From: Geosiphon pyriformis
Taxonomy: Eukaryota > Glomeromycota > Glomeromycetes > Archaeosporales > Geosiphonaceae
Assembly (NCBI GenBank): GCA_016748015.1
Contig: JAAOMT010000299.1
Location: forward strand, 1,039,924-1,103,923
Reading direction: 5' to 3'
Length of the DNA: 64,000 nucleotides
Every line of letters begins with the position of its first letter. Position 1 is the first letter of the stretch. The position numbers and the translations under genes are program-made. The notes below the pieces were generated by a model. It saw only the letters and a program-made list of their open reading frames with translations, was not told the DNA's origin and did not search any database. Shown here in pieces: positions 1 to 64,000 of the stretch.

Positions 1-266
1 TTAACATCGGTCCCAACAGTCTCATCAACTGTATTGGACTTGTTAGCCTTTGTATCTTTATTTTCGCTTTTTTGAGGGGCTTTCCAACTCTGGCGGTTTT
101 GTTTCTTACGAGCTTGTTTTTCTGCAGGGTCTTCATGCACCGAGATGGCTTCAGTGTGGAACTTGGAACCAGTGGCAGAAAAGGATTCGTTGAGGAACGA
201 AGTAGATGTTTCCGAGGTAGGAATGCTCAAAACGTGTTCGGCTGGAAGATTCGTTTTGTCGGACAT
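1..266 (-). CDS. Partial open frame, possible retroelement gag N-terminus or host gene fragment
   Basis: On the minus strand an open frame starts at an ATG at 266-264 and runs 88 codons off the left edge of the window. It begins MSDKTNLPAEHV and is rich in Ser, Thr, Lys and Gln with no recognisable domain; a basic stretch near residues 60-75 contains ARKKQNRQSWK. Its base composition is clearly more balanced than the A+T-rich DNA beside it, so it is either a young insertion or a real gene end. About 100 bp upstream (in the sense of this strand) is a CACA followed by TTTTGGGAGTTGCTCTGGGAC, which could be an LTR end followed by a primer-binding site; that would make this a gag leader. This reading is weak. 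I do not recognise the protein. Confidence 0.35.
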   Translation of the reverse strand, partial: MSDKTNLPAEHVLSIPTSETSTSFLNESFSATGSKFHTEAISVHEDPAEKQARKKQNRQSWKAPQKSENKDTKANKSNTVDETVGTDV

Positions 267-1063: not shown

Positions 1064-1072
1064 TTTACATAA

Positions 1073-3850: not shown

Positions 3851-3905
3851 GTGTAGATAACAACATTCATCCACAAATCCCAAAAAAGAGTCTAAAAAGT
3901 TTTTT

Positions 3906-5785
3906 TTGAAAGAAGTTTTTACCATTCAGTATGATATCTCTAAACTGTTTCTGTTCGATTACAAGACCACCATTGGCCCAAATACTGCTATCATAAAGAA
4001 GGCTGCTAAGAGTTCTGGTTCTGGTAATGGTTTTGAGACGGTCTTGTCGAAAAAGAAGAGGAGGGAAGGTGTTTTGAAAGATAGTTCCAGTGACAAAAAA
4101 GTGGCTTCTAAAGTCCAGGAGAGCTATTCATGGGGTTCAGAAACTGGGAACACTACTGAGTCTGAGAGTATTGATATAGAAGAGGAGTGTCTGATGGAGG
4201 AGACCAGCTTTGATTTTGGTGAAGGTGGTGCTCTGGCTGGTGGGAATCATGATCAAACACTCACGAGTTTAAAAGTCAAAACAAAGAAGGCATTGGGCAA
4301 GCCGTTAGGAAAAATTGATTTTTCAAAGGATAGTGATGGTGATAGTATTCTCTCGGATACTCCTCTTGAGCTCCCCCCTCCTTTGAAAAACTTGATCAAT
4401 GTTTCAGTCAGGAAGTCATTCACATTAGATATTGGTTTAGATAAGGTGGCTGGCAATTCTTCTCAGGAAAAGCTTGTGGTGGTGAGGAAATTATTTTCTG
4501 GAATCAATGGTTTTGGGGGGTGTCTACCCTCTCAAAATTCTCAGAGATCATTAGAGCAACGTTCACTTCTGAATCGAGTCTAATGAAAGCTACTGATAAG
4601 GCTGCAAGTGCGAAGATCCTAGTAAATACCAATCTCAAAAAATCATCTGGGCGATCAGATCGGGCTGTAGTCATAAAAGAAATTCCAATTGGAACATTGG
4701 CTGAAGCTGTGTGCACTGCGCTATCCAAGTTTGGAGTTATTAAGGCAATCAAGATGCAGTTAATTGAGCTGTAACAGAAGGCAGTAGTAGAATTTGAGCA
4801 ATCAGATCAGGCTGATTTGGTCGCAGCTGAGTAGTCCATTCTAATCGGAAAAGATGCTATACATGTGGCTAGGGCTGATTTAGACAAGGAGGCATGGGAT
4901 GCATGGGACCAACATAGGGCACTGCTTTACACATTACCAATGGGGACCAACACTCATGATATCTGGGGCTTTGTTAGATCTGTAGATGGGAAAACATGCA
5001 TCATTGATCATCATTCTGTTATATATAATTGGGCCAGGTGTGCTGTTGTTTGCTTTGACTCTGCTGAATCATTGGATACTGCTGTGGGAACCACACCAGT
5101 ACTTAAGAACACCAATCTCTGCTGGTCTCGCCTCATTTCTGCTAAATGCGCCAAGTGTGGGAAATTGGGTCACATGTCATTGGGTTGTGTAGTTGGTAAG
5201 AAATTTTTTTTTGGTAGTTCGCTGTGTAGAGTTTTCTCAGATGCGGATAAAAGCAGGCTGACAATTATCTATGCCAAACGCTCAGCTCCGGTTGTCCGTC
5301 CGGTCTTTTTTGGTGGTCTTTCTTGGGCAAAAGTTGCTCGTGGGTCTTCTTTGCTCTCCCTCTCTAGTCAGAATGTTTTGGTGGATAATGGCTCCTCTTC
5401 AGAAATGAAGCCGTCCCTACTGGTTACAATAGAAGTCAATAATAGGTTCGCCACTCTTGAGCACAGTCTTGTCAGCCTCATGGAGCAAGTTGGTAAGCTG
5501 GCTAAGAGGTTGGATGCACTCAGGCCAATGGTTTCCCAGCCTAGCCCTGGATGTCAACCATTAGTGACCCCTTTATCACAGGATCAAAGGGCAGATGTAG
5601 TGATGAGTGAGAGTTCAGGTGCATCCATTAGCAGTGGGAATGTAGCAGGAGTGGTGTCTTTTGATATGTCTTCAGTGTCTAAGCTGGAAAACAGCATGAA
5701 GTGTTTAATGGAAATGGTTCTAGGCCTTTTGGCCAAAGTGGATAGTATTAGTGTGTGTTCGGTGTCTCTACCCCTCACTCAATGA
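3906..5785 (+). pseudogene. LINE-B ORF1, nucleic-acid-binding protein (frameshifted)
   Basis: ORF1 encodes the RNA-binding protein that packages LINE RNA. The N-terminal part (3,906 to about 4,520) is acidic and Ser-rich. A shift in a G-run near 4,515 moves the frame; the sequence then continues as SKFSEIIRATFTSE, matching LINE-D ORF1, and runs into a stop at 4,772 where LINE-D has Trp. A second stop (about 4,831) lies at a codon that is also a stop in LINE-D. From 4,865 the frame is open to 5,785 and contains a CCHC zinc knuckle, CAKCGKLGHMSLGC, followed by a Ser-rich region. The stop codon overlaps the ORF2 start as ATGA (5,782-5,785). The protein is not expressible as it stands. Confidence 0.85.
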
Positions 5786-8700
5786 GCAGTTTGGTCTAAA
5801 AAGTTGCTACATGCAATGTCAAGGGCATGAACAATCCTGCTAAGCAGAAGGACATTATTAGGTGGCATAAGGAAATAAACAATATGGTCTCTATCATTAC
5901 TGAAACGAAATTGAGAAGTAAGGTTCATTCGTGGATTGCAGATAAGTTTGATGATGTCCGAGTATTCACTTCTGGTTTGAACTCTGGTCACTTGGGTATG
6001 GGTGTTGCTGTTGTTTTGGACATTTCTTTGGCTCGTCATGTGTACAAGGTTTCTGAGGTGCCTGGTTGGCTCCTGTCCATTAAATTACTTTTCAAGGATA
6101 AACTTTCTGTATTGATTCTGGGGCTTTATGCTGGTGCCTCTTCGGCGGTTCAGTTCTCTTAGGCTGGTAAAATCAACTCTCTCATTGCAAAGGCTGTCAA
6201 TGAATCTTCTTTTACTGTTCTTGGTGGTAATTTCAATGAAGATGATTCTTGTAAGTATGCTAGTTTTAGGAAGTGCCTTGATTTGGGTCTGGCTAATTCT
6301 TTGGTTGGAAGCCTAGCTGTAAAAATGCCTACTTGGGCAAACTCTAAAGGTGTTAAAAAAACGATTGACTATGTTTTGGTTTCTTCAAATTTGGTTAATG
6401 CAATAGTACACCGTGGTGTTTCAAATGCTGGTGAATATTTTGAAATGGATTATCAGGCTGTTTCTGTGTCTTTGGGTGGTTTGCTGGACATGCAGTTGAA
6501 CTCTTTTCGCAAACAGGCGAATAGAGATTATTAGAAGTTTAATTTTAAGAGTATTGATGACATGAAATAGAACAAGTTCAAGAGTGCTACAGCAGCTAAT
6601 GCCATCATTTTCTCTGATGATTTTATTGCCTCCCAGTGGTTCTCAGATTTGGATGCAATGTGAGATGTTGTTCACAAGATAATGGTTCTTTCAGTTGATG
6701 AAGTGTTCAAGAAGAAATAGTTTAAGGACTATGATGGTGTCTTCACTAAGGAATCATCCAAATTTCATAAGTTAGAACTTTTGATATCGAAGCTGGTTAA
6801 AGCTTCTCAGTCGATTTGTTGTGATGAATTCATTTTACTGTTGGATGTCTAAGGTTCTCTTGACGATGATAATGCCTCTGTAGTCAGATCTCTCTTTCTC
6901 TCCGGTTCTCCTCTTGATACTGTTCGGTCAGCTCTCTCCAAGGTCAGAAAGACTTATCACTCACTTAAAATGGCAGAATCAAGGCACATAGAAGAATCTC
7001 AAATCAAGTCAGCGATCAAAAAGAGGATAGAAAGTTTCGAGCTGAACAAGAGTCACACTATTTAAAGCATCTTGGAGTGCTCTTTCCATAAGGTTGTTTT
7101 GGACCACTTAGTAGTGGATGATGAGCTGATTTTGGAACCTGGTCCTGTGAGATTAAGAGTGGATGATATCATGAAAAGGTAGACTAAGAAGCGTAGGGTG
7201 GTTCCCAATGTTCCTGACATATGGCACCGTCAGTATCAGCCATTGGATTACATTTTTGATGAGGCTTTTTCTGGTGTAATACAGCCAATTGAGTTTTTGA
7301 ATTTGCTTGGCATGGTTTCTGATCTGCCTATTGGCAAGGCTGCTGGTCTTTCGGGTATTTCAAATAAGCTGTGGATGCATAGTGATAGGTCTGTTCTGAA
7401 TATGCTCTTGGTGCTTCTGAATTCATGTTTGTCTCATAAGTCTGTGTCTGGTCTTTGGAGGGAAGCTTGAATTTCGATGATCCCTAAACCATATGAGTGA
7501 GAAGATGTCTTCACAAATACCCAACCTATAGCCTTGATCGAGACAGCTCACAAGATCTTCTCTAAGATTCTCTCTGACAGGATATTGCTGGCATGCAGTG
7601 CTCATGACATTTTTCATGGAGATAATTTTTCAGTTTTGAAGGGTACTACTATCCAGACTCCTATTTTTGCTATTGGTTCAGTTGTTGAGGATGCTTTGGA
7701 GAAGAATCGGGAGCTCTGGCTGGTATTGTAGGACATATGAAAGGTGTACGACTCTGTTGGATGGAAGCATCTCAAGAGGTGTTTGGTCAAGATCAAAATA
7801 TGTGGCAAGTTTATTCATTTTTTTGGCAATATTCATAGAAATTGGACCAATCAGGTTATGACAGACTTCAGTTTAACTGATGATTATAGAGTACATGATG
7901 GGCTGGACCAAGGAGAAGTTTTTTCCCCCCTTCTTTGGCACATATTTTATGATCCTCTTTTGTGCGAAATCAAGCGTTAGGAGAGTGTATGTGAATATAG
8001 GCTCAATTCCCATTTTGTTTCCAGAAGTGGTCGTGCTGAATCTCAAGCTGGGTTTTCTACTTTTTTCGCTGTTGGGGCCTATGTTGATGACACAATTTGG
8101 ATAGACAGCAGTCAGGCTGCTATTCAGCATATTCTCAATGTTGTTAGTGAATTTTTTCGAATTAATGACATTTCAATCAATAACGACAAAACTGTGGCCA
8201 TCCCTATTAATGCTAGGATCAGCAATCCGTCTCTTTTTATTAGTGGTTCACCTATTTTTATAACCAAAAAAGGTGAATCTTATCGATATCTTGGTATTTT
8301 TCTCTCAACTGATGGTTTTTCTAAGCCTAGTTTGGCTAAAGTGCATTCGGATGTTTGTTTTTTCAGTAATTTGGTTCTAAAGAAAGCAGTTTCAGATAAG
8401 CAGTTCTTGTACCTAGTATTGGCAGTTCTCCATCCTATAGTTAGCTACAGGACACAGTTTAGCTTTGTCCCTGTTAGTGTGTGTGACAAGTGGGATGCTC
8501 TGATTCACAAGAGTTTGAAACTTAAAGCTGGTCTTCCTCTCGATTTTTCTAGTAACACAATTCATCATCCTTCTTTTTATGGTCTGAAGTCCTTCTCACA
8601 ATGTCAGTCTGAAAACAAGGTTGTTTTACTTATTAGTTTTGCGAACTTCTGTGGGGTTCTGGGTCAATTGTTTAGTCACAGATCTTATGACTTACAAGTT

Positions 8701-10455
8701 CTGTGCTGGTGCCCCATTCATCTATTGAGTTCGCTGGCTTGTATTCATGTCAGTGTTTTCAATAATTTTTTGTCAGGTATGGTATGCATTCTTCTTGAAT
8801 GTAATTTGTCTTTAGGTGGCTCTTTGGCCGGCTCTTTTCAGTTTCGTAATGGAGTGCCTATGTCTACTGTTTTGGGCGAATTCTTGTTTTTCAAATACTT
8901 GCCTTCTCTCCAGCGTTATGGCATTGCCTTTGTGGATCAGCTTCGGAATCATCATGAAGATATCTTTGACTGGTACATCTTTAAGTAATGGAAGAAACTG
9001 GATTTTTGTGGTCCAGTTCTTGAATGGTTTGGGCGCTCTGTTGCATTTCTTAGTGATGTGTCTCCCTTTCCATTGGCCTTGAGTGGTGTTGGCCCTACAG
9101 ACATTTGTAGTTCTAATGGTTTTGTGTTGGTATGTGATCATCTATCTTGAGTTGGCACTGATAGTTTGGCTGTGTATACGGATGGGTCAGTAAAAAATTT
9201 GGGCACGACTGGTTGTAGGACCGGAACTGCTGCCTTTTTTGAGGACATTGACTTGGATTTGGGTGTTTATGTTCAGGGTCTGATGTCATCTACTTTGGCA
9301 GAGTTGCAGATTATAGCATTGGCTCTGGAATGCATACCTGTGGATTGTTTTGTTCGCCTGTTTTTGGATAGCCAGGCAGCTTTAGATGCTTACAAGTCGG
9401 AGGTTGACTTGGTGTGTCCTGACTTTTGCAATCAGTGTTGGGTTGAGTGCCGGCATATTAGAAATATTATACACGGAAAGAATTTGAAGGTTAGCTGGCA
9501 CAAGGTTAAGGGCCACTCTGGTGTGTTGGGAAATGATTGTGCCGATAGCATCATTGATACTGCAGCTTTCTCTGATTGGTTTCTTTCTTCTCGTGTGGCT
9601 GAATGATTTTTGTTGGCAGATGGTGGTATTGTTTTTGGCAATTCTAGACACTTTGTTCGTGATGTTTTTCATGCTGTTTGTCGGGTATGCTAGAAGGTCA
9701 GTTCCGGTTCTGGGTTCTTAGCTGGTAATTTGCACTCAGATGTCAATTGGCTTGCCTCTTTCAGAGTTTGGCATCCTGATTTGCATATGGCAACTGGTTT
9801 CACCAGCAGGTGCACTGCTAATATTCGTACTTACTTCATGAAGGCCTTGTACCATCGGCTTCCCATGGCTGTTCGAAAACACATTTATGATAAATGTTAC
9901 TCCAGTGTTTTGTGTCTGTATTGTGGTGAGGTGGAGGTGTCTGATTATGTGTTTTCTTGCATTATTGATGATGCGGCTCATCATCAGGTTTTGGAATCCT
10001 ATATGTTTTCTTGGAAAGTGCTTTTTGGTCTCTTTCTTCCTGCTTTATGTGTTTTACAGCTGCTGTTAACCTGTGCCACAGACCTCCTAGTGTTCTCAAC
10101 TCTTTGCAAGGGTTTTGTTTTCAAGGGATGGCTTCAGGAGGCTGTTTCTGTCTTCCATGTTCCCAAAGTTGCTGGTGTTAAAATTGCTGATTTTGTATGC
10201 TCTGTTTGTGTTGTTTTTAGGAATAACATTTGGTTGGTCTGTGCTAAGTATCGTGCTTACATGGAAAGGAATGGCCTGATCCCAGTAAATGGCTTGGTTC
10301 CCGTCTCAATTTCTGGTTTGACTTCAAGATTCTCAGATGGTGTGGTTAAACTGCTTGGTGTTGTTGAAGTGTTTGGTGTCTGTTTTGGCTTTCGCAAATC
10401 TTACTCTTTTTTTTCAGGTATTGGTGATTCGGTTTCAATTAATATAATTGTGTAG
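5782..10455 (+). pseudogene. LINE-B ORF2, endonuclease / reverse transcriptase / RNase H (multiple stops)
   Basis: ORF2 would nick the target and reverse-transcribe the element. The domains in order are as follows. The APE-like endonuclease (about 5,800-6,530) keeps the ETKL glutamate, but the usual GDFN reads GNFN. The reverse transcriptase (about 7,200-8,250) has the KAAGLSGISNKLW block and an intact YVDD at 8,080-8,091. The RNase H (9,166-9,606) keeps its acidic residues in YTDGS, LAELQ, LDSQ and GNDCAD, with the GHSG motif. A C-terminal CLYC..DYVFSC motif (about 9,910-9,960) has lost its usual His (DHVF to DYVF). At least eight stops break the frame, including TGA for Trp at 7,468 and 7,498, TAG for Gln at 6,160 and 7,729, and TGA for Arg at 7,738. 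It is inactive, but the parts are easy to recognise. Confidence 0.88.
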
Positions 10456-25543: not shown

Positions 25544-28500
25544 TTACACACCTAAAACAACACGCAGATTACCATTCAAACCAGAAAAAAAAGGACAAGG
25601 TCTGCAATGGCCAAAATTCACAGCAAAAGACTCTACAATACCAAGCAACCTGACCATTCTATCTGAAAGCACAGAAGACCCACAACATAAAAGACCCACC
25701 ACCAAACCATTATCACCAACTAAGCCTGCTTTTTCTATATCCACTCTAAATTTAGACCTTGTTAACCACATCTTGGATCGATGCAACTTAACCAAATACC
25801 TCACAAAGTTAACTACCACACTAGTAGCACTCTTAACATCACCAAAAATGCCAACTGTCTCTGCACACCAATCCTTAAGCACAAACTCTCTATACATGAC
25901 TGAATACAAGCTGACATTTGAATAATAAAGATTAAGAGTTCTTAAGACAGAGGAAGAAGATGGGTCACAAGCACCAGCCAAAGAAATCCAGCAAGCAGAT
26001 GCCTCCGACAAAATGTCCCCCCAAATATAAACATCCTGTGAACAGGTGAATACGTGGTCTGGCAATTCCACCTCATTACACAACAAATATTGCATGCCAG
26101 GATAACTTTTATCATATAACTTTTTACAGACAGCCACCAGCAGCCTTCTGTATAGAGTTTTATCAAGTATGTGTAAAGAATCACAGACTTATGGCTGGTA
26201 AACCCAGCAAGCATGTACAAGTCGAGATGCCAAATCTGTGTGGAAGCAATCCAATCAAAACTCTGCAACAAAGCAACTGGAATCACATCATGACCTGAAC
26301 CAGCCTCCTAATGAGCATAACAAATAGATCTATAAATATCTCTGACAAAGTAACAAGTGTTACCCAAAATTGCAGTACTTTTAGCCACCAAAAAACACTC
26401 ATAAACCCCAGCCGGCAAAGAAAGAGGAGAGCCAGTAGTCTCACCAGCCAGCGTATTTGCTCTATTATTACCAGGGACTCCAGAATGACTCTTGACCTTA
26501 ACCCAACTCACAGCGAGATCTTTATTTTTAATCAAATTGGCAATATATTTTCTCTCAATTCAACAATGATTGCAAAAATCAGGAACAGCAAAAGCTAATT
26601 TGGATACACATGCATCAATGACAGCTTGGCTGTCAAGATGCAAAACCACTGTACAGAAGGGAGGAACACATTCCAGAGCAAGAGCCATAGCCTGCAATTC
26701 TAATAAAGTTGAAGATAAAAGCCCACAAATGCCAACACCAACTCCTGAATCCAAAGCAAAAAAATAAGCAGCAGTCTCACTAATTACACTGGAGAAGCCA
26801 GCAAATTTCAACGAACTATCAGTATAAATATCAAAAGAGCCAGACCAAACTTTGAGTAAACCATCATGCACAAAAGCAAACTGTTCAGAATCCAAAATGC
26901 TACAGCCTGAAAAACCATCAGCTTTAACAGCAGCAGGTGACATTGAACTTCTATCCAGCAAAAATCTCGATGTGACATTGAACCAGTGAGGCACAGAGCC
27001 CCTGGGATCAAGCCTCTTCCAACAATAAAAAGTCTTCCAATCCATCACAGCACCTTTTTTGTCAAGGAGTCTGTTATCAAAGGCAACTCTAAAACACTTC
27101 AAAGAGTGAACACAACTAAAAAACAAGGATTTCCCCAAAATCTCAGACATAGGAAAATTACCAGGGTCCCTAAATGTACTAGGTAGAAAGCCTGCCAAAG
27201 ACAGCTTACAATCCAAAAAAATTCTGACCACACCAGCTAAAAAATTGTTCACAAAACTAATGAGCAGCTTAACTGAGAACTGCAATGGATTCAAGGGTGT
27301 CCATCCAAGAACCTGCAAATCCAAGAAGTGATGAAGAAACAACTGACCAAGAATGCCCAGAGCATTTGAAAAAGATATTACTGCAGCCACCTTACTCTCA
27401 GATTGTATCTGGTCAAAAAGCTTCAAGCCATAAAAAGAAGGATGATGTAAAGCCTTATTCAGGAAGTCACGAGGCAAGTATGTCTTAGACCTAAGGCCTT
27501 TCTTAACCAAAATGTTCCACTTGTGACATACACTAGAAGAAACAAAATTAAACTGCATTCTGTAGCTAACAATTGGCTGCAAAACAGTAGAGACCAAATA
27601 AAAATACTTTTTGTCCATAATAGCCTTCCTAAGTACAACATTGACAAAGAAATGAACATCCAAATGCGCTTTGGCCAAACTAGGTTTGGACAATCCCTTA
27701 GTCAACAAAAAGATTCCTAGATATCTGTGAGCTTTGCCTTTTTTCACTATAGAAATCGGCTGATCACTAATACTTAAAGAAGCAATCTTGACACCCTGAT
27801 TGATCGGAATAGCCACTGTTTTCTCATTGTTAATAGAAATATCATTGATTGAAAAAAATTCACTAGCAATATCAAGAGCATACTGCATGGAAGTCTGGTA
27901 ATCTCCCATCTAAATCATTGTTATCAGAGGTTTTTGGTCTCTTTTTTTGAATGTTGTAAATGTCTGTTGGTTGCAAATTCATGTTTTCTAGAAGTAGTTG
28001 AATCTCCAATAACTGAATTTATCTTCAAATTATCTCCTATAATTTGAACTGCTAGGCTTATAAGTAAAATGGCCAATTTCTTGCCAGTTATTTTATGTAG
28101 TTATGTTGTAGTAAACATTAACTCTTTCCCAGGAATTGCTCGTCTAGAAGCTCACTAAAAAAAATGTGTAGTTACTTTGCTGTGAAAGTCAACTCTTCTA
28201 CAGGAATCTTGTCTGTAGACTACCCTAATAATTGTAATAAGAAAAGAAAAGAAAAATAAAAGAAATGTAAAAGAAATAGAATTCTGTTAAGGAAAACGTT
28301 TTCTATTCAGGCCTGGAGTCATTAACAGTTTACTGAAATTGGTAGCTAATCAATTTCAAAATGTTAGTTGGGTTCTTGGGGATTTTCCAAGTGCAAATAA
28401 TTAAAGAATTTGGTTTTTTGAATTATTTGATATTTATTTTTTTTTGTGTGTGTAGAAATGGTTCTAAGTGATAAAACTAAAGTAAGATACATTTTCTTGA

Positions 28501-31210
28501 AGAGAAAAGCTCTTCTTTTATACAACTTGTTGTAGTACTAGTCTATGAACTTGCACTTTTTCTTTTGCTCAAATTTCAGCAAACTAAAGATATATTTTGA
28601 TGAACTACAAGTTATTTTGCTGAACTATTGATTAATTTGGGTGAACTATTCTTAATTTCAGCAAATTTCTGTAAATTTCAGCGAATTTTAGAATGTTACA
28701 AAGTTCAGAGTATTGTGTAATTTGATCATCCTACTTTCTGTTATACTAATTAGATTATTTTAATTGAATTGTGATATGTGATAATTGATTAAATAATAAA
28801 TGATAATTTGAAATGATATTAATATACTAATTAATTATAGAAATTATAAGAGTAATTTTATGCTAATTAATAGCTAAAATTCTACTGGTAACATCGTATT
28901 ATCCACAAAAGCACCAGCAACCAAAAAGAATGACATTCCACCATTATTTTTAATTCTGCCAGTCTTTGTCACAAAATTAGTATCAATCCTGTATCCACAT
29001 AAATGTTCATACCTCTTAATCTCACACAAGAGTAGATCATAGAAGATCCTCCAGAGAAGGGAAAAGAAAACTTCATCTTGATCCAAATCATTGTGTACAC
29101 GATAGCCATCCTATAGACCAAAATTTGTCATAACCCTATTAATTCTATCATTATGTATGCCTTTGAAGAAACTAATAAATTTGCTGTACATCTTAATGTG
29201 TTTCAAGCTCACTTCTAAGTAAGACCACCCAACCGAGTTATATGCTTTATGCATATCTTGTAACACCAGCCAAAGTTCACAATTCTTCTCCAAAGCATCC
29301 TTAACTACTGAGCTGACAGCAAAAACTGGAGACTGTGTAGACATACTCTTTAAAACAGAGAAATTATCACCACAAAGAACACCAAACTTGCTGCAAGCGG
29401 ATGAAATTCTGTTAAAAAGAATCTTAGAGAGAATCTTCTTTGCAGTCTCGATTAATGCAATAGACTGAGTGTTTGTAAGAACCCCATTCCAGTCATAAGG
29501 CTTTAGAATCATTGACACCCATGCTCTCCTCCATAAAGTAGACATCTCACCAATAATTACACATGTATTCAACAGCTCCAGAAGGCAATCCAATACCACA
29601 TTGCCACTATGTTTCCACAATTTATTAGGAATGCCAGACAAGCCAGCAGTCTTGCCATTAGGAAGATTATTAACCACTGAGAGCAGCTCATCCAAACTGA
29701 TTTCACACATTACTCCAGAAAAAACATTGTTCTGCACATAATCCAAAGGCGCATATTGGCAAGCCCAGAGATTAGGCATCGCTATAAGTATCACCTGCTT
29801 TTTTGTACATCCCGCCATGATCTCATCCACTTTAGACTTCACCTCTTCAGGTTCCAGAACCAAGCCTCCATCAACCACCAAATGATCAAGTACCACTTTA
29901 TGAAAAGGCCGGTCCAAAATACTTCTGATCATGTCCCCTTTATTAAAAGTGAAACTCTCCATGCGTTTTTCTATAGCTTTTCTAACAGAAGCCTCTTCAG
30001 CTATCCTTGATTCAAACATTTTTGATTTTCTGTATTCCTTGTGAAATAAAAACAGATGCTTAAGAAGAACCCCATTATCCTTACCCAATCTAACCAAATT
30101 AGAGAATGCGCAAGCTTTGTCTTCATCCAAAGTGGACCATTTTTTTATGAAACAGACAACTTCAAGCATATCACCAGAGTGGACCACACCAAGAATCTTA
30201 GCGACAAGCAACTCCAACCCAAAGAACTTTGAAAAATGTTTGTTCCTAGAGCAATGAAATTCACTAAATCACAGTCTGGCAAAAATCTTATTAGCAGACC
30301 CAACCATCTCCTTTTCCAAAATCGCCCACATAGTATCCAAATCACCACCAGTTTTGGCATTAGTGAAGACATCTTTGATCAACAGAAGCCTTGCTGAAAC
30401 ACAATCCCTAAACTTATTCCACTTGGACACATCCGCATCCTTAATCTTGAACTTTCAACAATCTTTGTTAGTCTGTCTGCGCAAATTATTCAACTGAACA
30501 TCCAAAAGCCTACCCAGACCAACTAACACCATGACATTACTATGATCCGTGTCAAAAAAATTCAAAACTGACCCAATCCAATGCTCAGCAACAGTAGATA
30601 ACAGACTCTCATTAACTAAAATATAATCAATAGTCTTTTTGATTCTTCTTGAATTGTACCACGTAGAAGCCAATGCCAATTGATGGCCAGCAAACAAATT
30701 AACCAAACCAAAACCCAGGCAAAACCTGAAACTTACACTCCTCTCAGACTCATTTTCATTAAAATTCTCACCCAAAACAACAAAATTGCTGGTATTAGCT
30801 TTAGCAATGAGAGAATTAACTTCAGACGTCTGACCAAAACAAATGCCAGAAGAGGCACCAGCATACAAACCGAGCACAATTACCGAAAGCTTGCCTTTGA
30901 ACAGAAGACACACTGAGATAACATAACCAGGGACCACCTCAATCTTAGAAACATGGTAAGTCAAAGAATTGTTTATGATTATAGCAACACCAGCACCAAG
31001 ATAACCAGCATCCAAATCAGAAGTAAAAATCTGAACCCTCTCAAATTCATTCTTGATTCATGGCCCAGAGGAAGGCCTCAACTTCATTTCAGTAACAAAA
31101 GAAACCATACTCCCAGAGCTTACATGCCAATAAACAATGTCTGCCCATTTGGCTGGAATATTGAGATCCCAAATATTACACATAGCAAACTTCCAAATTA
31201 GGTCATTCAT
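25544..31210 (-). pseudogene. LINE-D ORF2, endonuclease / RT / RNase H, split by element E
   Basis: ORF2 starts at the ATG 31,210-31,208. The endonuclease (about 31,210-30,455) keeps TEMKL and TDH-like text, but GDFN reads GENF. The RT region is open from 30,217 to 29,111 (NGKTAGLSGIPNKLW, VSMILKPYDW), and the catalytic box at 28,898-28,909 reads FVDN. Element E then interrupts it, and coding resumes at about 27,909 (DISINNEKTVAIPIN). RNase H (about 26,830-26,440) keeps YTDSS, LLELQ and LDSQ, but the last acidic site reads NNRAN instead of an Asp form. The C-terminal motif CNEVELPDHVFTC (about 26,075-26,035) keeps its His. Confidence 0.87.
27902..28884. mobile_element. Element E, non-coding insertion of about 1 kb in the LINE-D RT region
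   Basis: About 0.98 kb separates two RT segments that are contiguous in LINE-B. It has no long open frame. The 7-bp CTGGTAA at 27,895-27,901 recurs at 28,885-28,891 and may be a target-site duplication, although the codons at the left junction do not rejoin cleanly. The right half has repeated TTTCAGCAAA / TTTTGCTGAACTA motifs (28,575-28,695), and the middle has a purine-rich AAGAAAAGAAAAG run. I found no terminal inverted repeats. Decayed relatives occur at 34.4-38.4 kb, so this is a repeat family and not a one-off insertion. Its class is unknown. Confidence 0.65.
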
Positions 31211-33044
31211 TTGGAGAAAAAATGTGAAGGAGCACCCAAACTAGAACACAAGCCATCCAAACATGCTAACACCGAACCAATAGAAGCCTCCAAAGATGCC
31301 AACTTAGACTCCAAGCCACCCACTTTGCCAGTGAGAATCCTGGAGTTACTAGAACTGAAAACATGCACACCAACATCAACAGTAGAAGAAAAAGAAGTAG
31401 ACAGTATCAAAGTGCATTCCAAAACCATATTCGAGCCTGAACCTGAAGCCAAAGATGCAGAAGCATCAGGAGGAGAGACAAAAGAGGAAGATACCAAAGG
31501 CACCAGTCCAGCACTATCAAGATGTCTAACAATAGTAGACACCAGATCAGAAAGAAGCTCAAGTGAGTGTTTCAAAGAGACCAAACATTCATTTAAAGAA
31601 GAAACATTACCAATATCACAATAAGAAGAAGAAAGCAGATTTGAGCTGGGACCAGCAAAAAAACCATGAGAGAGGGGAGAAACCACTGAAACCACTTGGG
31701 CCCAGGACTTTCCACCAAAGGCAACAGGGTGGAAGATAGGAACCTTCTTTTTTTTATATAACTTGGCCAGCTGGAGATGTCTCTCTTCAGAAACAAAACC
31801 TTTAAAAGACTTAACCAAAGATGACAATGGCATAGAACCAACTGGAATGTCACACTTAAGAGCTGAATGCCCAAAATGTCCACACTTCCAACACCGAACC
31901 AAATCCAATCTAGCTCATGAGAGCCACCCACTACCAAAAACAGACTCAGTACAAAATGTTAAATCCAAATCTTTCTCAGATTCAAAGCCAACCACAGCAC
32001 ACCAAAACCTATTGTCAGTGTCCAAAGATCGATTGATGATACAAGTCTTACCACCAGCCCTATCCAAAAGAATACCAAGATCATGTACAGTTGTTTCCAC
32101 TGGCAAAGTAAACAAAAGTGCTCTAAAACAGTCTCTTGATGCCCAGATATCACAATCTCCCACAGCTTTTGCCACATGTACTGAGTCTTTTCTGATCAGA
32201 AATGACTATCTTGACGCCAACAGATCAGCCTGACTTGATTTGGCAAATTCCACCACAGCTTTTTGCCACATACCAATTAACTGAATTTTGATTGATTTAA
32301 TATTACCAAATTCGGCAACTGCAGTGATGATCATTTTCTTTGGTGTATCTATGGGAATTTCCTTGATTACTATGGCCCAATTTGAACGCACTTCTGATTT
32401 CTTGAGATCAGTGTTTATGACAATCTCTTTTTCTCTGGCCAAAGATGCAGCCATATTCATGCTTTTTTCAGAAGTAAAGGTAAATCGGATGATCTCTTTA
32501 AATTTTGAGGGAGTAGTGGCCCCCCCAAAACCATTGACCAATGAAAAAAATTTTCTAATTAACTGAGTTTTTACCATTGTCGAATTCCCTTTTATAGCAC
32601 TAAGATTGATATCAAGAGCAAAAGATTTTTTGACAGACACCTCAATCTGATTTTAACAATTTTAGGGTCAATCCATTTTCTTTTCAGAGAGATTGAAAGG
32701 TGAGAAGGAAGAAAAACATCTTTATCATTATCCATGACAAAATTAGGAAAACCAAGAAGTGAACCAAAAATGGCACCAGTATTAATATACTTGGCTTTAG
32801 AAATATTGGCAGCTGAATCCAGAAGAGACCCAATATTAATGCTGGTCATGTTAGTATCTTCCTCGTCACCAGACACATTATCCACATTAGAAAACACACT
32901 GTTACCAAGCTTAGACCTGTTCAGAGAAATATTCTTTTTATCACTTGAGTGTTTAACATTCCCAAGCACAACTCTCTTTTTCTGCAAAAAGAAACCACCA
33001 GTAGGACCATGAAAAGCACCCTTTGGTGCCTTCTTTTTAGACAT
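31207..33044 (-). pseudogene. LINE-D ORF1, zinc-knuckle protein (frameshift and stops)
   Basis: ORF1 starts at an ATG at 33,044 (MSKKKAPKGAFHG). It passes through an acidic, Ser- and Asn-rich segment and changes frame near 32,650. It continues with SVKKSFALDINL and KFKEIIRFTFTSE, the segment shared with LINE-B. A TAG follows LLASR at 32,206 and another stop occurs near 31,914, just before the CCHC knuckle CWKCGHFGHSALKC. The C-terminal 230 codons are open. The stop codon (31,209-31,207) overlaps the ORF2 start. Confidence 0.85.
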
Positions 33045-33208
33045 GTTGCTACTAGAGGCAGTCTTCAGATCTACGAAAAAGAGGTTATTAGAAAGAAAAA
33101 TTATAAAATACTAACAAGGAAAAAATAAAAAACTTCTTTATCAAAAAAGCGCTTTTTGAGAATTTGTGGATATAAGAGAAAAAAAAGTTTTTTTAATAAT
33201 AGTATTTA

Positions 33209-47707: not shown

Positions 47708-50700
47708 TTACATAATACTTGTATAGGAATAATGCTGTCTGGAAGAAATACCATTTGCTGTAGCATTAGGATAGATCAAGGCTAAGTTGTCTGTGATGAC
47801 GGTATTGTGCTGTTGGGGTGACGAATTCTGTGAATTTATTATCGAGCCAATTGATTTTACGTGGATAGTTGGTGATGATGAGGCTGCAAGACCAGACGAC
47901 AATTGTGGCGTACCTATGCTACCAGTATCTGATGGACTATGTGTCGTTGTAGAAGTAGAAATTGAACTTGATGGATATATAGTTGTAGGACTATGCGTGA
48001 ACTTATAGTCAATGGGTGAGTTAGGACTATGCTGTTCCGAGACTAATGAACAGACATCATTTGAAATTTCAGTTTGCATATTATGAGATTGTTGCTCATG
48101 TTCTTGCTGCTGCTCTTGTTGATAAAGATTTATTTGAGACAGATCAAGTGGTGGTGGGACTGGATGACGTAGCCCCGTTTGAAGAAAAGAACTAGCGACA
48201 CCATTTTGTCCGGTGATCAAAGTGTTCATGGTTGGTGTAGTAGGAGTAGAATTTGGTGGACTAATCATGGCCACTGAATTATTATCATCATCATTACTAT
48301 CATTTGAAACAGCTACTGTTGTAACGGCTGCAATTGCGTCACGTTCAAGTTTTGCCTGCTTATTTTTGATTTGTACCCATCGAGTTCGACATTGTCGCTA
48401 TAGGAAAAGAGTGAGGGTTTAGTTTAAAAATTCCCCTATTATTCATATCAGAATAAATTTTATTGAATCACCTGAGTGCGTCCATCAATCATCTCCGCGA
48501 TACGAATCCAACAACGACCGAACCTCCGTACACCTTCCTTCAATATTTCATCTTCTTCAGGTGACCATTTACCTTTTCGAACACGAGGGTCCAAAGCTTC
48601 TGACCAACGAGCTTGACATTGAATTCCAGTTCGATGTGGGATCCGAGCGGCAATTTTATTCCATGGGATCGGCTGAGGATTACCATCGGAATCGATGAGA
48701 TCAACATATTCTGCTACAGCTTCTTTTAAGGCTGCATCTTCTTCTGGTGTCCAACGACCTTTGTGTATCGTTGGATTTAATGCACCTAACCATCTTGTTG
48801 AGCATTGCATTGGCGTACGATTGGGAACGTGCGCTGCAATTAACGACCATTTATGAGGACCATAGATACTTATCGCGGCTCTTAGTAATTGATCCTCTTC
48901 TTCTGTCCATTTTGTGTAAACTGGAGGTTTTTGGTTAACTAGGCTGGGTGATGATGGTCGCGATGATGAATTTGAAGTTGGCGTTGGTGGCTGTTGATAA
49001 TCAGGGTCGTATTGGGCATCGGAATATGTGTTAGGCTGCAAAAACGATAAAAATATTTATGCATAAGCGGTTGGGGTAGATGTAGGCACATGATCTAAGA
49101 ACTATCAAGATATCCATGACGTAACGACTTTGTCATACTGAGCCGGCCAATAGCTACAGGTACTGATCGACGTGTGAGAAATTTTTTCGAAAGAGCACAA
49201 AGGTTTCGTCATTCTTTCAATGCCGGTTGAAGCATTTTATGCCATTATTTCCCCGAAGAAGCACAATATCGTTGTCATACAAACAGAATTGATAATCATC
49301 ATAGAGAAAAACTTACATCGAATTGATAATCGTATTGTTGCATGGAAAGTTCATCGCTAAATGGCATTGGTTGTGTTTGCGAATAAGGAAGGGTTGCTGA
49401 TAATGGCGTTTGTAAGCCATCCAACGATACCATATTCGTGGGGCTCGGATAGGCACTTTGCAAGATCGATCCATAGGCAAGAGAACCCATTTCACATTCT
49501 TTCGTGGCCGGGAACTGGAAACAGAAAATAATATAAAGAAAAATTAACCCAAGAAATACAAACAAATTAAAAATTCCGAGATAGACAATTAGGGGAACAA
49601 GAGCTGAATTCAGGTTATTTTACCTGCCAATCTCCGTGATCAATTGGAGAATTCTTTGTAGTGGGTGGACGAAAAAAGGATAGTGTAAAAGGTTGGTTGA
49701 TTGAATGAGTAGAATTTTTATTGGTCAGTTAAGGCAACTCAATCCAGAGGGTTTTTCATCAAAGGAAATGGAGAGAACCGGAAAAGATTAACATGAGAAC
49801 TTACCAAATTTGATTTATGAATATTTCGTGGGACATTCTGTTGAATTTCTACATTACCTCGTGTTCCAAGTGAGTGTGAACTTGCATCTGAAAACTTTTT
49901 TCCATTTGTACAAACAAAGGGAAACAGGCATGGAAAAAAAAACAAAAAAAGAAATGACGATGATTAATTACATTTAGGGAAGTAAACAAGAAAAGAGCAA
50001 CAATTTGTTTGAATGTCAAAATCTGATAAGCTGCTGCAAAAAGTAGATCGTGACGCTATCAACAGAGACAATGAAACCTACCAATTTCTGAGGGAGGTCT
50101 TGTTTTTGAAAATCTTGCTGAGATACCTTTGGGAGCAACAATCAGATAAAAAGTTGTATTTTTTTTTAATGAAAAAGTTTGTTTCTATTATATATTATTT
50201 TATATTTATTTTATATACAAATAAAATCCAATTTAGATTTTGATATTTTCTGTACCTGATATGTTAAGGCTGCAGCGGCAGCTACAGGAGGATTTGGACA
50301 GTTGTTATTGCTTTGCTCACGAGAATAGTATTGCTAATTGAATTTGAGATGAGGGGTAAGAGAATCGTAAGAAGAATGTTTGACAAAAATATATTCATTT
50401 GCAAATGAAAACAAACGATTGAAGAGTCGAGGTTATTGTTATTTTTTTTGGGTCAAAATTTAAAAGTTTGGGACTCGATAAATAGTGGGATAAAAAAAAA
50501 GAACGCGATTTTGCGAAATTTAAGAAAGGATTGTGACAAGGGGTTTACTGTTGAATTCTGATTGGTTTTGAAGAAGACAAAGAAATACAAAACAATAATG
50601 ATAAAGTAAAAGCTGAATTGAATGACACCTACTTGGTAAAACGGTGTGACGTTTACATTGTTATTGTTATCAAGAAAGTATTGGTAAGGTAAGTGAATCA

Positions 50701-57132: not shown

Positions 57133-60100
57133 ATGAATAAGGTTAATCCTACAAAAGAAGCATTTGATCAACTTGATGCCTTTCTTAACCCAAGGCCAAC
57201 TCAAGCTGACGCCAAACGACGTGGAAGACCACCGAAAAAAGAAAATACTCTTTCTGCCAAGCAGTAAATATAACCTTGAAAAAAATTTCGGTACCATAAA
57301 AACTGGATGTTTATAAACAATAAATCATCAACGTAACTTAAATTTTAGGGTTCAAAATTTGCTTCAGGACATATACAACCGAATTAAGGAGGAGGTAAAT
57401 CTCTTGAAGTTTATTGAAAAAAAAATACAACCTTCAAGCAAGTTTATAAACTTTCATTCCTTTTTAGCCTGAATTATCAAATTTCATAAAAATAACATCT
57501 CCAAATGAGGTTCAACATGAAATTTTTGCGTTAGAAAGCTTAATGCAAAAATACGGCCATCTCAAAAACGCGACTAAAAGGATCACGGAAATAATAAGCT
57601 TAATGATCAGCATTATTGCTAATAGTGGAGTCTTTGAAAAAGAGCAAGACAGCAACTGGGAAAAAGTGTTACTTGACGCTTTAGGACTAATAGAGGCATG
57701 TTAAAAAGTATTCTTACGTTATCAAATTTGACTTTGGATAAAAAACAAAATAAAAACTCAAAGGGGTTTTCTTTTAAAATACTAGCACATTATTTTAAAA
57801 GATGCTGTTGGTAGGTCCAAATTGAAATGTTTTGGTTTTAACAATTTTCATGAATGAAAGAGCGAAATAATATCCTGGTTCACTTTTTTTAGACAGAGTC
57901 ACAATGGGTAAATTTTGCTTAAAAACATTGACTGAAACACTAGTAAAGTCCTCGCTGAGCGTTGATATTCGCCGAATGGTAATTTTCCGCAAAATTTTTC
58001 TATTTCAACGAGACACAAATCTCTGATACATGAACATATGTAAATAGACATCCGATGTGATAAACACCCTTTTGACAGGATGTAAAGAAAACAAAAAGCT
58101 TTTGAGCCACGGTAAATTCCTTGATGTGTATCCTTTTTAGGAAAATTGATATTAAAATTTTTAGTGCAAATTTGCTTTGAGCAAATATCAATTGCGAAGA
58201 CATTGAGTCTTTTACTTTCCTTTTATTGACCTGAATAAAAGGCAGACTGCTGCAACATCAATGAAGGCTGCAGGAGGTTGTGAAATATTTAAGTTGGTTT
58301 GAAGTTTTGCTCTCTATCTTTTATCTAAAATTTCGGACAATATGTTTCTATGAAATAGATTATGAGCTTCAATTCAGACACCTTGAAATTCTTTTTCGTC
58401 TATGTCCAAGGATGCAGGAAGATCGAGAAATATTTGCTAATAAGGTCTTCAAAGGTGATTATCAACTGACAGGACTCTTCCTAGAAATTAATGCCGAGGA
58501 TTTTTTGATGGTAAGCCAAACAGACCCAATATATTTATTACAGTTGTTATCACTTACGAAAAAATTTTAAAATTGTAGAATACTAGGAATTTCTTAAACG
58601 TCCTCAATTCCTCAAATGATGGCGTGACAAAAGCGTACGTTAGAGACCTGCGTATCATTTTAAAAGAACTTGGTTAATTTTTAGCATTTTACCAGTCCAA
58701 AAACTTTGAAGATGACACGCATGCAGTACAATCGAATAGATTTTGATCGTCCAGATCAGCAAGATTGTTTCTTCGTAGACTTTAACCGATGGACAATCTC
58801 GGCGGCAGTCCAAGGCCCAGATGCGGTATGAAAGTTCTTCGAGTCACTCAAATCTAGCAAAAGATTGCCACTAAAGCATATATTATCTCTTTTTGACCTC
58901 AGCACTCCAACGAATCTGAAGGAAGCGACATCATTGATATCAAGTATCAAAAAATCCGCAATTGGGAAATAGTGGATGAATCATATTGTAAATTATTATG
59001 AACATATTGTGTGTTAATCTAGAAATTATGATTAATTTATATTTTTTATCGCAGCACAAATCCTCAAAATACACCTTTGCGAAGCTCTCCAAATTGGCGA
59101 CCAAGAGGGCACCCATTATACGAGCTTTTCTTCTACTGAAGATTCTATAATATCCATGACAATTGCCTCCTCCGAGGAAAAAAATATCAGAAATGATATA
59201 GCTAAAATTTTTGCTAGTCATAATGTGGTAAGGTTTTGCTTGATATTCAATTGGAACATGAGTTTTACTAGGAAGCAACCTAGCTTCAATAATCTGACTT
59301 CATATTATTAGAAGTCATGCTCACAGCCCAAAGTTTCGGTGTCTGTTGATGTCTTGCGTCCTCTTGGATCTTCAATAAATGCGGTAAATGCACGAGACAC
59401 ACTAGCAAAATCCCTTGAGGCATCACAAACGCCATCAATTCAACAGCCAACTCGCAAGCAAGCCAAGAATCAGAAAATTGAGAAAGAAAAAGCCAAAGAC
59501 AAAGAAAACGTATTTGACACTTCATCCAACATAAATTTATCTGACGAGGAAAATAGAAAAGGAGAAAATTTACCGTCTTCTCTTCGTATTACACCACCTC
59601 AACCGTTGCAAGAATTTCAATTTAATGACGACTCACCCACGCTGCAAGAAAACTCACTCTCGATGATTAATATTGGTTCAGATTCAGATGCGCGACTTCC
59701 CTTTCCCCCTCCAAAAAAACGTTCAAAACCGTTAAACCTTTCTGCTTCAAAAAAACGACGAAAGACCAGTAAGGAGGAAACAGATGAAATTGGGGATAAA
59801 GAGGCCGAATACCATGAATTAAATAGAAACACTGATAAATTAGATTTGGAAAAAGCATCGAAAGCTGATTCTCAAAAGACAAGTATCATCAAAAACCTTG
59901 GCCGAAGAACAGGTAAACCAGTTATGAGTAAAGGTGACTCTACAGACAAGTGCATGAGGGAGAAAGCAGGTATTCAAAAAGCTCAATTTAAAAATGCGTT
60001 TGATTTCGATGCTGATGAAGACGTATTCGATGTGCCTTTACAAGACGTTCCAGAAAGGGAATCAAATAAATTAGAAAAGCCTATGCGTCCTTCTACGTCA

Positions 60101-61851
60101 AATACCCAGTCACTTGCTCAGGAATCTTCTAATAATATAGAAGACTTTGAAGGTTGGGAGAGCCACGCTGAACCCGAAAGGCAAGGCCTGTCTAAACACT
60201 TTCAATATAAAGACAAAATTTCCAGACTAGGATCAAATTGGGCTAAAATAAGGGGTGATGCCGACGAATGTGGGCATATATTAAAGCGGGTCCCCCATAA
60301 AGGTGTTCAGATAAATTATAATACAATTGAAGAAATTAATTACAGTGCTATTCCCTCGAAATCCAAAGAAAAAAGCATTCTTAGCAGATGGGATCAGGTC
60401 CAAAACCCAGGTGAACCACAAATAATCAAGCAACACAAATTCGTCGAGAATTCTAAAGATCAGGGAGATAGACCATGGATATCATGGAACCAGAATAACG
60501 CAGCAGAAATAAGTTCAAAGCCTCTTCCTAAAATGCTTTTTAAAAAAAACATAACGGTCAGTTGTAAAATATAGCTATAAATAAATTATGCACCTCAGTT
60601 AATTTAATTTGGATTTATCAGTTTTATATTTCTTTCCATAGGTTAACGAACTAGGAAGCCCAATGTTAAGTGCCGATGAGAAGGAAGCTTTAAATACTCA
60701 AAAACAGATTGAAAATGAAAATTCTTCTTTAAATACCTTTGAGGAGAAAACAAAGCGAAGAACAAATCTAAATTTGCAATCACGTAAGTTTTTTATCATT
60801 TATCAAAGCTATTTAATGTTCTCACTCTTCATTTTCCTCGTTGAAATTTTAGAACTAGAAGAAGATTCTGCATTCGAGAAAAAGCACGGCAAGAAACGTG
60901 GTAATCTGAGGCCATCAGTCTTAATGATAAATATCCTTGACTATTTTCTCATTTCAACAACAAATATGAATAGTTCCTTTTATAGAGAGGCTTGGTATAT
61001 TAGTCAAGAACACGTATGATAACGAGAATGAGGATGAAATTGGTAAACCAACAGAAGGTAAGAAGTTTACATGGTAAAGTTTTTTGAACAAGCTACATTC
61101 ATGTACTTTATTGACCTCATTTTAATTGAATTCTCACTCATAAAGGGCGAGATAATTTACCATCAACTAGTGGAATTTATCGCGCATCCTCAAAGCCATT
61201 ACAAATGACTTCGTTCGACGATCGAACTCCAGAAACTCAAAACCAAATGGTCTGCGAAAGTGATGAACTAGATGGTCAATACCAGATTGAAGATCCTGAT
61301 CTCCAATTAGAAAATGAGCGCAGTCACCTGGGTGGGTCAGAAAAATTCGCAGATGACAGGCTTGACCAAGAAATTAGAGGATTATTACAATGTGTTGGAG
61401 AGGTATGTATTTCATGTACTGGATTTTTCATATGTCTCGAAATAATTTTCTTTTTTCTGTCCCCTAGACAATATTTCAAAATTATCAACAACAAGATGCT
61501 ACTCTTTTTCAAGCAACACAAAATGCTATGTTGCAAGAGGAAAATGAGGTAATTGAGAGTCTAGACAGGCAATTTGAACGCAGGTATGAATTGTAAGCTT
61601 ATTATTATATTTAGATTTTAGATTTTAATAATGCATGTTCCAATTTCCCCGGTCTATTTTTTAATAGAAGGGAACTTCTCGACACCTATAAACGCAAATA
61701 CTCCTCTATCTCGGATGAATCTCAACACATGGTCGGTAAATTGAAAGAAGCGCGTAATGAGTTAGAAGGATTAGACTGGACGCTTGTTGAGATGGAAAAG
61801 ACAGCGCAGCTTGTCAACAACCAACCTGAAGAGAAAGTGAAAGAGTCTTGA
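57133..61851 (+). CDS. SYCP2/Red1-like meiotic chromosome axis core protein (about 1,080 aa)
   Basis: Axis core proteins organise meiotic chromosome loops and recruit HORMA proteins. The ATG at 57,133 follows an in-frame TAA. Exons: 57,133-57,263; 57,349-57,394; 57,468-57,699; 57,893-57,978; 58,079-58,111; about 58,240-58,276; 58,359-58,510; 58,579-58,638; 58,685-58,825; 58,903-58,987; 59,055-59,227; 59,312-60,556; 60,642-60,783; 60,853-60,900; 60,986-61,057; 61,146-61,402; 61,468-61,583; 61,668-61,851. Junctions from 58,276 onward keep frame; those between 57,978 and 58,240 are unresolved. An AT-hook-like RRGRPPKK is near residue 30. A helical N-terminal domain contains AAGDYELQ and NFLNVLNS. 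A following domain has CFFVDFNRW, NWEIVDESY, ILKIHLCE and IAKIFASHN. A long charged, disordered middle and a C-terminal coiled coil (LDRQFERRRELLDTYKRKY onward) follow. That order, and those motifs at matching places, agree with my recollection of SYCP2. Confidence 0.7.
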
Positions 61852-63093: not shown

Positions 63094-63165
63094 GTTTTTT
63101 TTTGAGATTTGTTTTATTTATTTTTATTATTTTTTTGGGCTCTTGAAATTTTATTCTACAGATTA

Positions 63166-63166
<1 letters not shown>

Positions 63167-63240
<74 letters not shown>
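63167..63240. repeat. TTA/ATT trinucleotide microsatellite, about 25 units
   Basis: This is an uninterrupted (TTA)n tract, upstream of the start of the minus-strand secreted-protein gene by about 75 bp. On the minus strand it would read as poly-Asn in another frame, but no gene uses it. Confidence 0.9.
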
Positions 63241-64000
63241 GATTATACTTTGAAATCTTAGCCTTGGAAGCCATTTATTTATATTTAGACAAGAATTTGT
63301 TCATTCAGAAAACTTTTGATCTATCATCAATAAATAATGAAATTATGATCTTGAATATTTTTAAAGAAAAATCTTTTCAAAAATGATTGAAACTTTTGAT
63401 GTGATGATTTTATAAAAATTGAAAAATTAGTTTATGACCACCAAGAACATGTACAATTCAATAAATAAATAAATAAATGGTTTTCATTACTTTTTCTATT
63501 TTATTTGAAAGTATAAACAAACAAACAAACAAACAAACAAAAATAAAATAAAAAAGTTTATAAACTGTGGTATGTTGTTAAATAAATAAAAAAAGAATTT
63601 TAAAATATTAAATCGGTCATATTCTTTTATTCAACAGATAACGATAAGAAACTATAAAAAATTCTCTTATTAAAATTTAATAAATATTAATCCTTTTTCG
63701 AATATCAAAACCTAGATTTTTCATTAGAGTTCAAATTTTCAAACAATCAATACTGTACTCATGACTTTTATTCCAAGAAGATACTGACCTATGGTGTTTA
63801 CTTGCTTTTGATTTCAAAAGTTTTTAACAGAATGACTGGTAATTATATATTCATACTTTGATAGCTAATTTTTTAGCATGTAAAAACTCTAGTAATATTT
63901 GGATTTTTTGACATGCTAGAAAGAAGAGATGTTTCAATTTCCACGTTTCATGTCCTACTCACTTTTCAACCTTTATAATACATTAAATTTAAGCAAAAAT
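63241..64000. other. Non-coding right end of the window
   Basis: No gene is recognised. Short AAAT (63,461-63,478) and AAAC (63,518-63,542) microsatellites are present. The promoter of the minus-strand secreted-protein gene should lie here. Confidence 0.5.

Follow-up and report, generated by a model that had tools for sequence, protein, structure and literature searches.

In SYCP2 and Red1, HORMA closure motifs follow directly after the ordered domain. The Glomeromycetes are often called ancient asexuals, and Geosiphon pyriformis, the source of the DNA described here, harbours a cyanobacterial endosymbiont. The kind of protein considered below, SYCP2-type, is already known. In the accessible sections of Tromer et al. 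(2021; PMC8131943), membership is set by a match with E<0.01 that covers the final ARM repeats together with the entire PH domain; a SYCP2-type protein of Diversispora epigaea is used or listed there, and the species appears in a figure legend on the profile search path. The original prediction for our locus, made from the letters alone, had stated that such genes are easily annotated as hypothetical. This is true of the GenBank entry, 'hypothetical protein G9A89_020450' of G. pyriformis, but the source annotations of two relatives already give the name synaptonemal complex protein 2. Given these names and the Diversispora entry, the family has therefore not been overlooked in this lineage. 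The available main texts of the Glomeromycetes genome papers that we word-searched mention neither Red1 nor SYCP2, and a search that covered few subscription papers found no literature linking SYCP2 to mycorrhizal fungi, Red1 to meiosis in Rhizophagus irregularis, or the synaptonemal complex to Rhizophagus. What appears to be new here, as judged from sequence, is the genome's own Hop1 together with PKVSVSVDVLRPL of the axis protein directly after the ordered domain.

We analyzed a 64-kb stretch of the G. pyriformis genome (hereafter the window), and conclude that the gene at 57133-61851 (+) very probably encodes a SYCP2-type (Red1/SYCP2/ASY3) meiotic chromosome-axis core protein acting by the mechanism proposed below. 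The assignment to the SYCP2/Red1 family, already proposed in the original prediction, is supported by the family profile, the fold of an ortholog, a closure-like motif and a Hop1 gene. The gene has 18 exons and 3282 nt including the stop, and encodes 1093 aa (Table 1). Exon number and limits had been predicted exactly and were reproduced by the spliced model, whose translation contains every motif quoted at that time (AAGDYELQ, aa 201-208; CFFVDFNRW, 297-305; NWEIVDESY, 336-344; ILKIHLCE, 347-354; IAKIFASHN, 393-401). The supposed source, a probable arbuscular mycorrhizal fungus, had to be corrected: G. pyriformis is a glomeromycete but, strictly speaking, does not count as an arbuscular mycorrhizal fungus.

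Table 1. Coordinates of the features of the Geosiphon axis gene in the window.
Feature	Position in window	Residues (aa)	Strand	Basis or remark
Exons 1-9	57133-57263, 57349-57394, 57468-57699, 57893-57978, 58048-58127, 58242-58276, 58359-58510, 58579-58634, 58696-58825		+	
Exons 10-18	58903-58987, 59055-59227, 59312-60556, 60642-60783, 60853-60900, 60974-61057, 61146-61402, 61468-61583, 61668-61851		+	
AT-hook-like motif KRRGRPPKKE	57214..57243	28-37	+	Pfam AT_hook E 0.34, under its cut-off
ARM-like helical domain	57259..58605, introns included	~43-263	+	Ambispora helices 38-270 transferred by alignment; 5IWZ match
Intron 5	58128..58241		+	U12-type by donor GTATCCTTT; surrounding coding sequence skipped in GenBank model
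Spt16M/PH-like domain (SLD)	58700..59215, introns included	~275-398	+	
Charged linker	59312..61336, introns included	403-972	+	Composition; disorder predicted in Ambispora ortholog
Putative HORMA closure motif PKVSVSVDVLRPL	59327..59365	408-420	+	Resembles C-terminus of Geosiphon Hop1, RKVSISVGHIAVL
Conserved basic patch PPKKRSKPLNLSASKKR	59708..59758	535-551	+	Alignments; nuclear-localisation-like by look
KKRVPFIERL	60891..60993, split by intron 14	878-887	+	V-x-F in 7/11 models reaching region
C-terminal long helix, presumed oligomerising coil	61337..61794, introns included	~973-1075	+	Ambispora helix 866-964

The axis gene is not a chance reading, because 12 proteins in the databases, representing 11 species, show similarity to it. 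With residues 1-430 of the initial model as query, this gene's own GenBank model was recovered at 93% identity, and nine other relatives at 33-59% identity over 71-99% of the region. Also, Pfam PF26290 is precomputed for four orthologs (P0003, P0004, P0005, P0007) and was absent from our Pfam scan of the members.

The Hop1-like partner that the original prediction had proposed to look for was found: the Geosiphon genome encodes a Hop1 consisting of a HORMA domain, a PHD-like finger and the tail KRKVSISVGHIAVL. Three HORMA pieces of this gene scored above cut-off, the PHD match (E 0.0033) being under its own, and in the PDB the protein matched HORMAD1 8J69 (E 2.1e-11). The tail has KVSI eight residues before its end, the same distance as in eight of the ten compared proteins that carry KVS[IV]. 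In the axis protein, PKVSVSVDVLRPL sits immediately after the ordered head, the right place for the closure-like motif whose presence the original prediction had proposed to test. The best axis-protein match of the 25-residue Geosiphon Hop1 tail falls at aa 401-414. An equally good match occurred anywhere in the shuffled axis protein in 48 of 300 cases, and the figure for its position was 7 of 2000; only position makes this match notable. When 30-residue Hop1 tails were compared, two of the five being cut or altered, the best ungapped axis match lay outside the post-head region in four of the five species pairs, Geosiphon included.

The KVS[IV]S[IV] motif is present in six of the 12 axis models and missing from the other six. 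Hop1 was found and the motif kept in all six species concerned (Geosiphon, two Ambispora, Gigaspora, Racocetra and Dentiscutata), and no Hop1 match at E up to 1e-10 was obtained in the five species whose axis protein is without it (5/5: Rhizophagus clarus, Rhizophagus irregularis, Funneliformis, Diversispora eburnea and Entrophospora). We tentatively suggest, as a possibility that we consider rather doubtful, that axis protein and Hop1 have become uncoupled in Glomeromycotina, the motif eroding where Hop1 is missing while head and coil remain. If this were true, Geosiphon would retain the ancestral axis protein-Hop1 pair, and the lineages lacking Hop1 would either build their axis without it or employ the axis protein outside canonical meiosis.

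We propose the following mechanism. The ARM plus Spt16M-like head would pack as in SYCP2, as homology and the predicted fold of the ortholog suggest. KVSVSV, just behind this head, would, as the shared motif and its position suggest, be a closure motif gripped by the HORMA domain of the genome's Hop1 in the way that Hop1 grips its own tail. If Hop1 grips the axis motif, the axis protein would therefore seed Hop1 on the axis. The helix at the C-terminus, roughly 100 residues long, may self-assemble into Red1-like homotetramers and filaments, a mode that we infer because SYCP3 was not detected: the exon-by-exon search of the genome with SYCP3/Cor1 (PF04803) gave two sub-threshold matches (E 0.21 and 0.80). 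The AT-hook-like N-terminal segment may add a direct contact with DNA, and the protein as a whole would act in a cryptic meiosis, in pairing and recombination.

Against this meiotic role, a true SYCP2-family protein might have left meiosis and been retained to work on somatic or mitotic chromosomes, a reading that we consider improbable. It has a precedent in the kinetoplastid kinetochore proteins KKT16-18, drawn from the SYCP2-type family according to the accessible sections of Tromer et al. (2021; PMC8131943), and it would fit the five species that retain the axis protein with neither motif nor Hop1 match. The failure to find Spo11 in the Geosiphon genome also speaks for it; the exon-by-exon search, which could miss genes, gave no match for Spo11 (PF04406, PF21180) or Mnd1 (PF03962). 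However, Geosiphon has DMC1 as well as a Hop1 with a closure tail, and the joint retention of motif and partner in 6/6 species argues against a non-meiotic role.

The identity of the head was examined by profile and by fold. The family profile searched against the PDB retrieved SYCP2 5IWZ at 9.9e-11 (chain 110-371) and nothing else convincing, as expected from the original prediction. Searched singly against the SYCP2 segment with HMMER filters off, the window protein scored 1.7e-4, and nine of the 11 other models were below 0.01; the initial and corrected models were almost equal (24.8 and 24.0 bits). Both the family profile and the window protein, the latter with filters off, fall within the limit of Tromer et al. 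(2021). The corrected N-terminal half, searched singly with HMMER default filters, had no PDB match at E up to 1, and within this same limit the whole-length family profile retrieved no chain from the PDB. Pfam SYCP2_SLD was placed correctly but under its cut-off (16.8 bits for the initial model and 14.8 for the corrected one, vs 26.5), and among seven family members scanned, SYCP2_SLD was detected in two and AT_hook in two. RGRP is present in 10 of the 11 N-terminally complete models, the exception being Entrophospora P0010. The fold was predicted for the Ambispora ortholog (mean pLDDT 55.5 overall, 64-93 in most head blocks), in which ARM and Spt16M/PH form one fold module; its predicted ARM-plus-PH region fits SYCP2 5IWZ best, far above the other ARM proteins listed, a structural match of the kind that the original prediction had named as support. 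An unrelated protein with a PH-like domain and ARM repeats of the type found in CTNNBL1, beta-catenin or importin is contradicted by this joint ARM-PH match and is very improbable.

The long charged disordered middle that had been described is borne out by a linker of 570 residues, 32% of them charged, and, in the Ambispora ortholog, by pLDDT <50 over residues 415-731 and 733-864. The basic patch is weak or absent in Diversispora P0009. KKRVPFIERL resembles an RVxF (PP1-docking) motif, the Geosiphon proline fitting this consensus poorly. The short C-terminal coiled coil was upheld in part: a single helix of 99 residues is predicted at the C-terminus of the Ambispora ortholog, but no sequence tie to a known axis coil was obtained. 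The coil profile gave 17 weak unrelated PDB matches (best 0.027) with no axis chain among them; the available text of Tromer et al. (2021; PMC8131943) likewise describes fungal coils as too diverged. The hydrophobic periodicity of the helix was strongest at 3.67 among the eight periods printed, and was reached in 17 of 2000 shuffles, a somewhat flattering figure since the shuffles were scanned over fewer periods than the data. This segment probably coils with others.

The corrected model, whose final splice junctions were set by orthologs, restores two conserved pieces dropped by the public annotation. It differs from the GenBank model (98% identity) by exactly two insertions, of 17 aa and 10 aa, located in conserved domains. 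An alternative splice model with a 29-nt intron and a different exon 15 start was ruled out by ortholog junctions. A decaying gene or misassembly, whose reading frame was saved by picking splice sites freely, might be suspected from the two skipped pieces and from the U12-type donor needed for intron 5, but it is hardly credible against 17/17 GT-AG introns with no stop or frameshift required, insertions that are both backed by Ambispora leptoticha and align with it gap-free, and U12, U11 and U6atac snRNA genes above cut-off in the genome. Scanning the window for Rfam families and tRNAs gave no match, and a plasmid search found no plasmid sequence in the linker DNA.

A full-length axis core gene and a matching Hop1 docking tag offer a concrete testable pair (peptide, HORMA domain and a target for antibodies on spread nuclei), which makes hidden sex in a supposedly asexual group easier to test. 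Also, the Geosiphon sequence may serve as a link between SYCP2 of animals and Red1 of yeast, which has diverged far more.

Compared with mouse SYCP2 (PDB 5IWZ), the Geosiphon protein shares the ARM-like plus Spt16M-like head, by profile and fold, as well as a closure-like motif right after it, a long linker and a C-terminal helix. It differs by its coil, which has about 100 residues where that of SYCP2 has about 175 (West et al., 2019), by its AT-hook-like N-terminus and shorter linker, and by the lack of a detected SYCP3/Cor1. With Red1 of budding yeast and Rec10 of fission yeast, it has in common, by their descriptions, the order of the parts, the closure motif after the head and the fungal origin, and with Red1 also a C-terminal coil that is short (residues 705-798 in the Zygosaccharomyces rouxii protein), whereas Pfam scans of the axis protein and family members detected no Red1/Rec10 family. 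The D. epigaea SYCP2-type protein of Tromer et al. (2021; PMC8131943) belongs to the same subphylum and is presumably an ortholog of the Geosiphon gene; unlike here, the closure motif is not discussed in the accessible sections of that paper. Finally, as far as the available text of PMC12678776 describes it, ecRED1 of Ectocarpus comes from a brown alga and its motif is C(S/G)LA, with several motifs present, but it resembles the Geosiphon protein in its ARM, PH and coiled-coil parts, and there too RED1 and HOP1 of one lineage share a closure-motif feature.

Manual splicing reproduced the 18-exon gene of the original prediction, with 17 of 17 introns being GT-AG, and the spliced protein contains all the motifs quoted there. 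The top database match of this SYCP2-type axis gene, which lies in an assembly of 124.7 Mb and 406 contigs, was 'hypothetical protein G9A89_020450 [Geosiphon pyriformis]', with 93% identity for the initial splice model (residues 1-430) and 98% for the corrected one. The sole differences are 17 residues of the ARM domain (GKFLDVQTAATSMKAAG) and 10 of the next domain (QILKIHLCEA), which the GenBank model lacks and which align without gaps to Ambispora leptoticha. Changing a single exon junction turned a PDB match of 6.5e-5 into none under default filters, with unfiltered scores less than 1 bit apart. Thus, single-sequence searches with this family need caution. In the public model of Ambispora gerdemannii (P0004), a protein bearing PF16837, PF12108 and PF11931 is joined upstream of the axis protein; the annotator probably fused two adjacent genes.

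Features of the axis gene, its window and the genome (C, contig of the same assembly)
Feature	Position	Strand	Details
Axis gene	57133-61851	+	18 exons, 17 introns all GT-AG, 1093 aa; manual splicing, ortholog-corrected
Putative HORMA closure motif	aa 408-420		PKVSVSVDVLRPL; immediately C-terminal to the head (ARM-like and next domain); resembles Geosiphon Hop1 tail
Intron 5, U12-type donor	58128-58241	+	within ARM coding region; starts GTATCCTTT
U12 snRNA gene	C150:172514		above cut-off
U11 snRNA gene	C312:327240		above cut-off
U6atac snRNA gene	C365:129720		above cut-off
U4atac match	C191:8149		weaker, below cut-off
Hop1, GenBank G9A89_023211	C401, locus L016 3050-6210	-	HORMA, PHD-like finger, C-terminal tail KRKVSISVGHIAVL
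Open frame, 171 codons	62602-63117	-	just downstream of axis gene; begins with MKCTLRLIRSIHVLLILIMTLLSPAYT, signal-peptide-like by eye; possible small secreted protein
ATT microsatellite	63162-63246		28.7 copies; upstream of the preceding frame
Broken-looking non-LTR-retroelement-like stretch 1	3861-10455	+	reverse-transcriptase-like frames, CCHC-like knuckle, by eye
Broken-looking non-LTR-retroelement-like stretch 2	25544-33110	-	as stretch 1
Myb/SANT-like repeats, then low-complexity tail	47708-49056	-	Myb-type transcription factor by eye

The two retroelement-like stretches overlap GC-richer parts of the window.

The 17 skipped residues are likely explained by a U12-type intron 5. Its donor alone proves nothing, because 2.84 such sites are expected by chance in the window, where it occurs once. 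Together with a branch-like match (7 of 9 positions of the consensus, 11 nt from the intron end), the U12, U11 and U6atac genes, with U4atac below cut-off, indicate that the intron is likely spliced as U12-type. Such an intron is to be expected in Geosiphon, since 205 minor introns are reported for Rhizophagus irregularis (PMC10639083).

In Red1/SYCP2, the ordered head is directly followed by a HORMA closure motif, a disordered linker and a coil, as described by West et al. (2019, PMC6349405). The original prediction proposed looking for such a motif and for a Hop1-like partner, and both searches returned a candidate. The Hop1 protein has three HORMA pieces above the Pfam cut-off and a PHD-like finger below it (E 0.0033); its one PDB match at E ≤0.01 was HORMAD1 (2.1e-11). 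A further HORMA locus, on C324, looks Mad2-like by eye. Hop1 ends in RARKKRKVSISVGHIAVL, and KVS[IV] was found in 10 of 19 proteins of the Hop1 database search, exactly 8 residues from the end in 8 of them, ranging from chytrids to Basidiobolus and Endogone; we take this end to be a closure tail. When the last 25 Hop1 residues were shuffled, an equal match arose in 7/2000 trials within the 50 post-head axis residues and in 48/300 anywhere in the axis protein. With 30-residue Hop1 tails, the best axis match fell outside the post-head region in four of five species pairs, Geosiphon included. KVS[IV]S[IV], a pattern picked after the Hop1 tail was known, appeared in shuffled linkers (aa 403-972) 4 times in 200000 within the first 50 residues and 33 times in 200000 anywhere.

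Six of the 12 Glomeromycotina axis models (11 species) lack this pattern. It is present in Geosiphon, A. leptoticha, A. gerdemannii, Gigaspora margarita, Racocetra persica and Dentiscutata heterogama, all six of which gave a Hop1 match, and absent from Rhizophagus clarus (two models), R. irregularis, Funneliformis geosporum, Diversispora eburnea and Entrophospora, where Hop1 was found in 0/5 species at E ≤1e-10 among the 7987 candidates sharing most words. This co-occurrence is treated as a lead, because the species are mutually related, the search was restricted to those candidates, several axis models are incomplete or of poor quality, and a faint [KR]VP[IT]S is retained at the motif position in Rhizophagus axis proteins. 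The available text of a Gigaspora rosea paper counts seven meiosis-specific genes, without naming Hop1 there.

N-terminal to the head lies an AT-hook-like KRRGRPPKKE (Pfam AT_hook below cut-off). Of the 11 models that are complete at the N-terminus, 10 retain its RGRP core; SYCP2 and Red1 are not known to carry an AT-hook. Conservation among the axis models is partial for two further elements, the basic patch KPLNLSASKKR and a V-x-F segment.

Other meiotic genes were searched in the Geosiphon genome. Joined exon pieces scored 252 bits for DMC1 vs 192 for RAD51 on C344 (L022), and 199 vs 261 on C150 (L020; NCBIfam), all partial and none at curated cut-offs; we read them as a DMC1 and a RAD51 gene, respectively. 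Spo11 and Mnd1 families had no match in an intron-blind search, which is weak evidence of absence.

The coil forms homotetramers in Red1 and tetramers with SYCP3 in SYCP2, according to West et al. (2019, PMC6349405). Because Cor1/SYCP3 was not detected in the Geosiphon genome (best E 0.21), we infer a Red1-like, self-assembling coil; its hydrophobic periodicity is maximal at 3.67 residues among the eight periods printed. In the literature searched, no discussion of an axis protein for Geosiphon or of its Hop1 pairing was found. In the accessible text of Tromer et al. (2021, PMC8131943), SYCP2-3 genes are present across all eukaryotic supergroups, HOP1 and SYCP2-3 are reported absent in Mucoromycetes and Zoopagomycota, and Diversispora epigaea is listed among the search-path species. 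The Gigaspora ortholog and one from R. clarus are already named synaptonemal complex protein 2 in database sources. On the basis of that text and these names, the Geosiphon axis gene is a further member of the already known SYCP2-type family.
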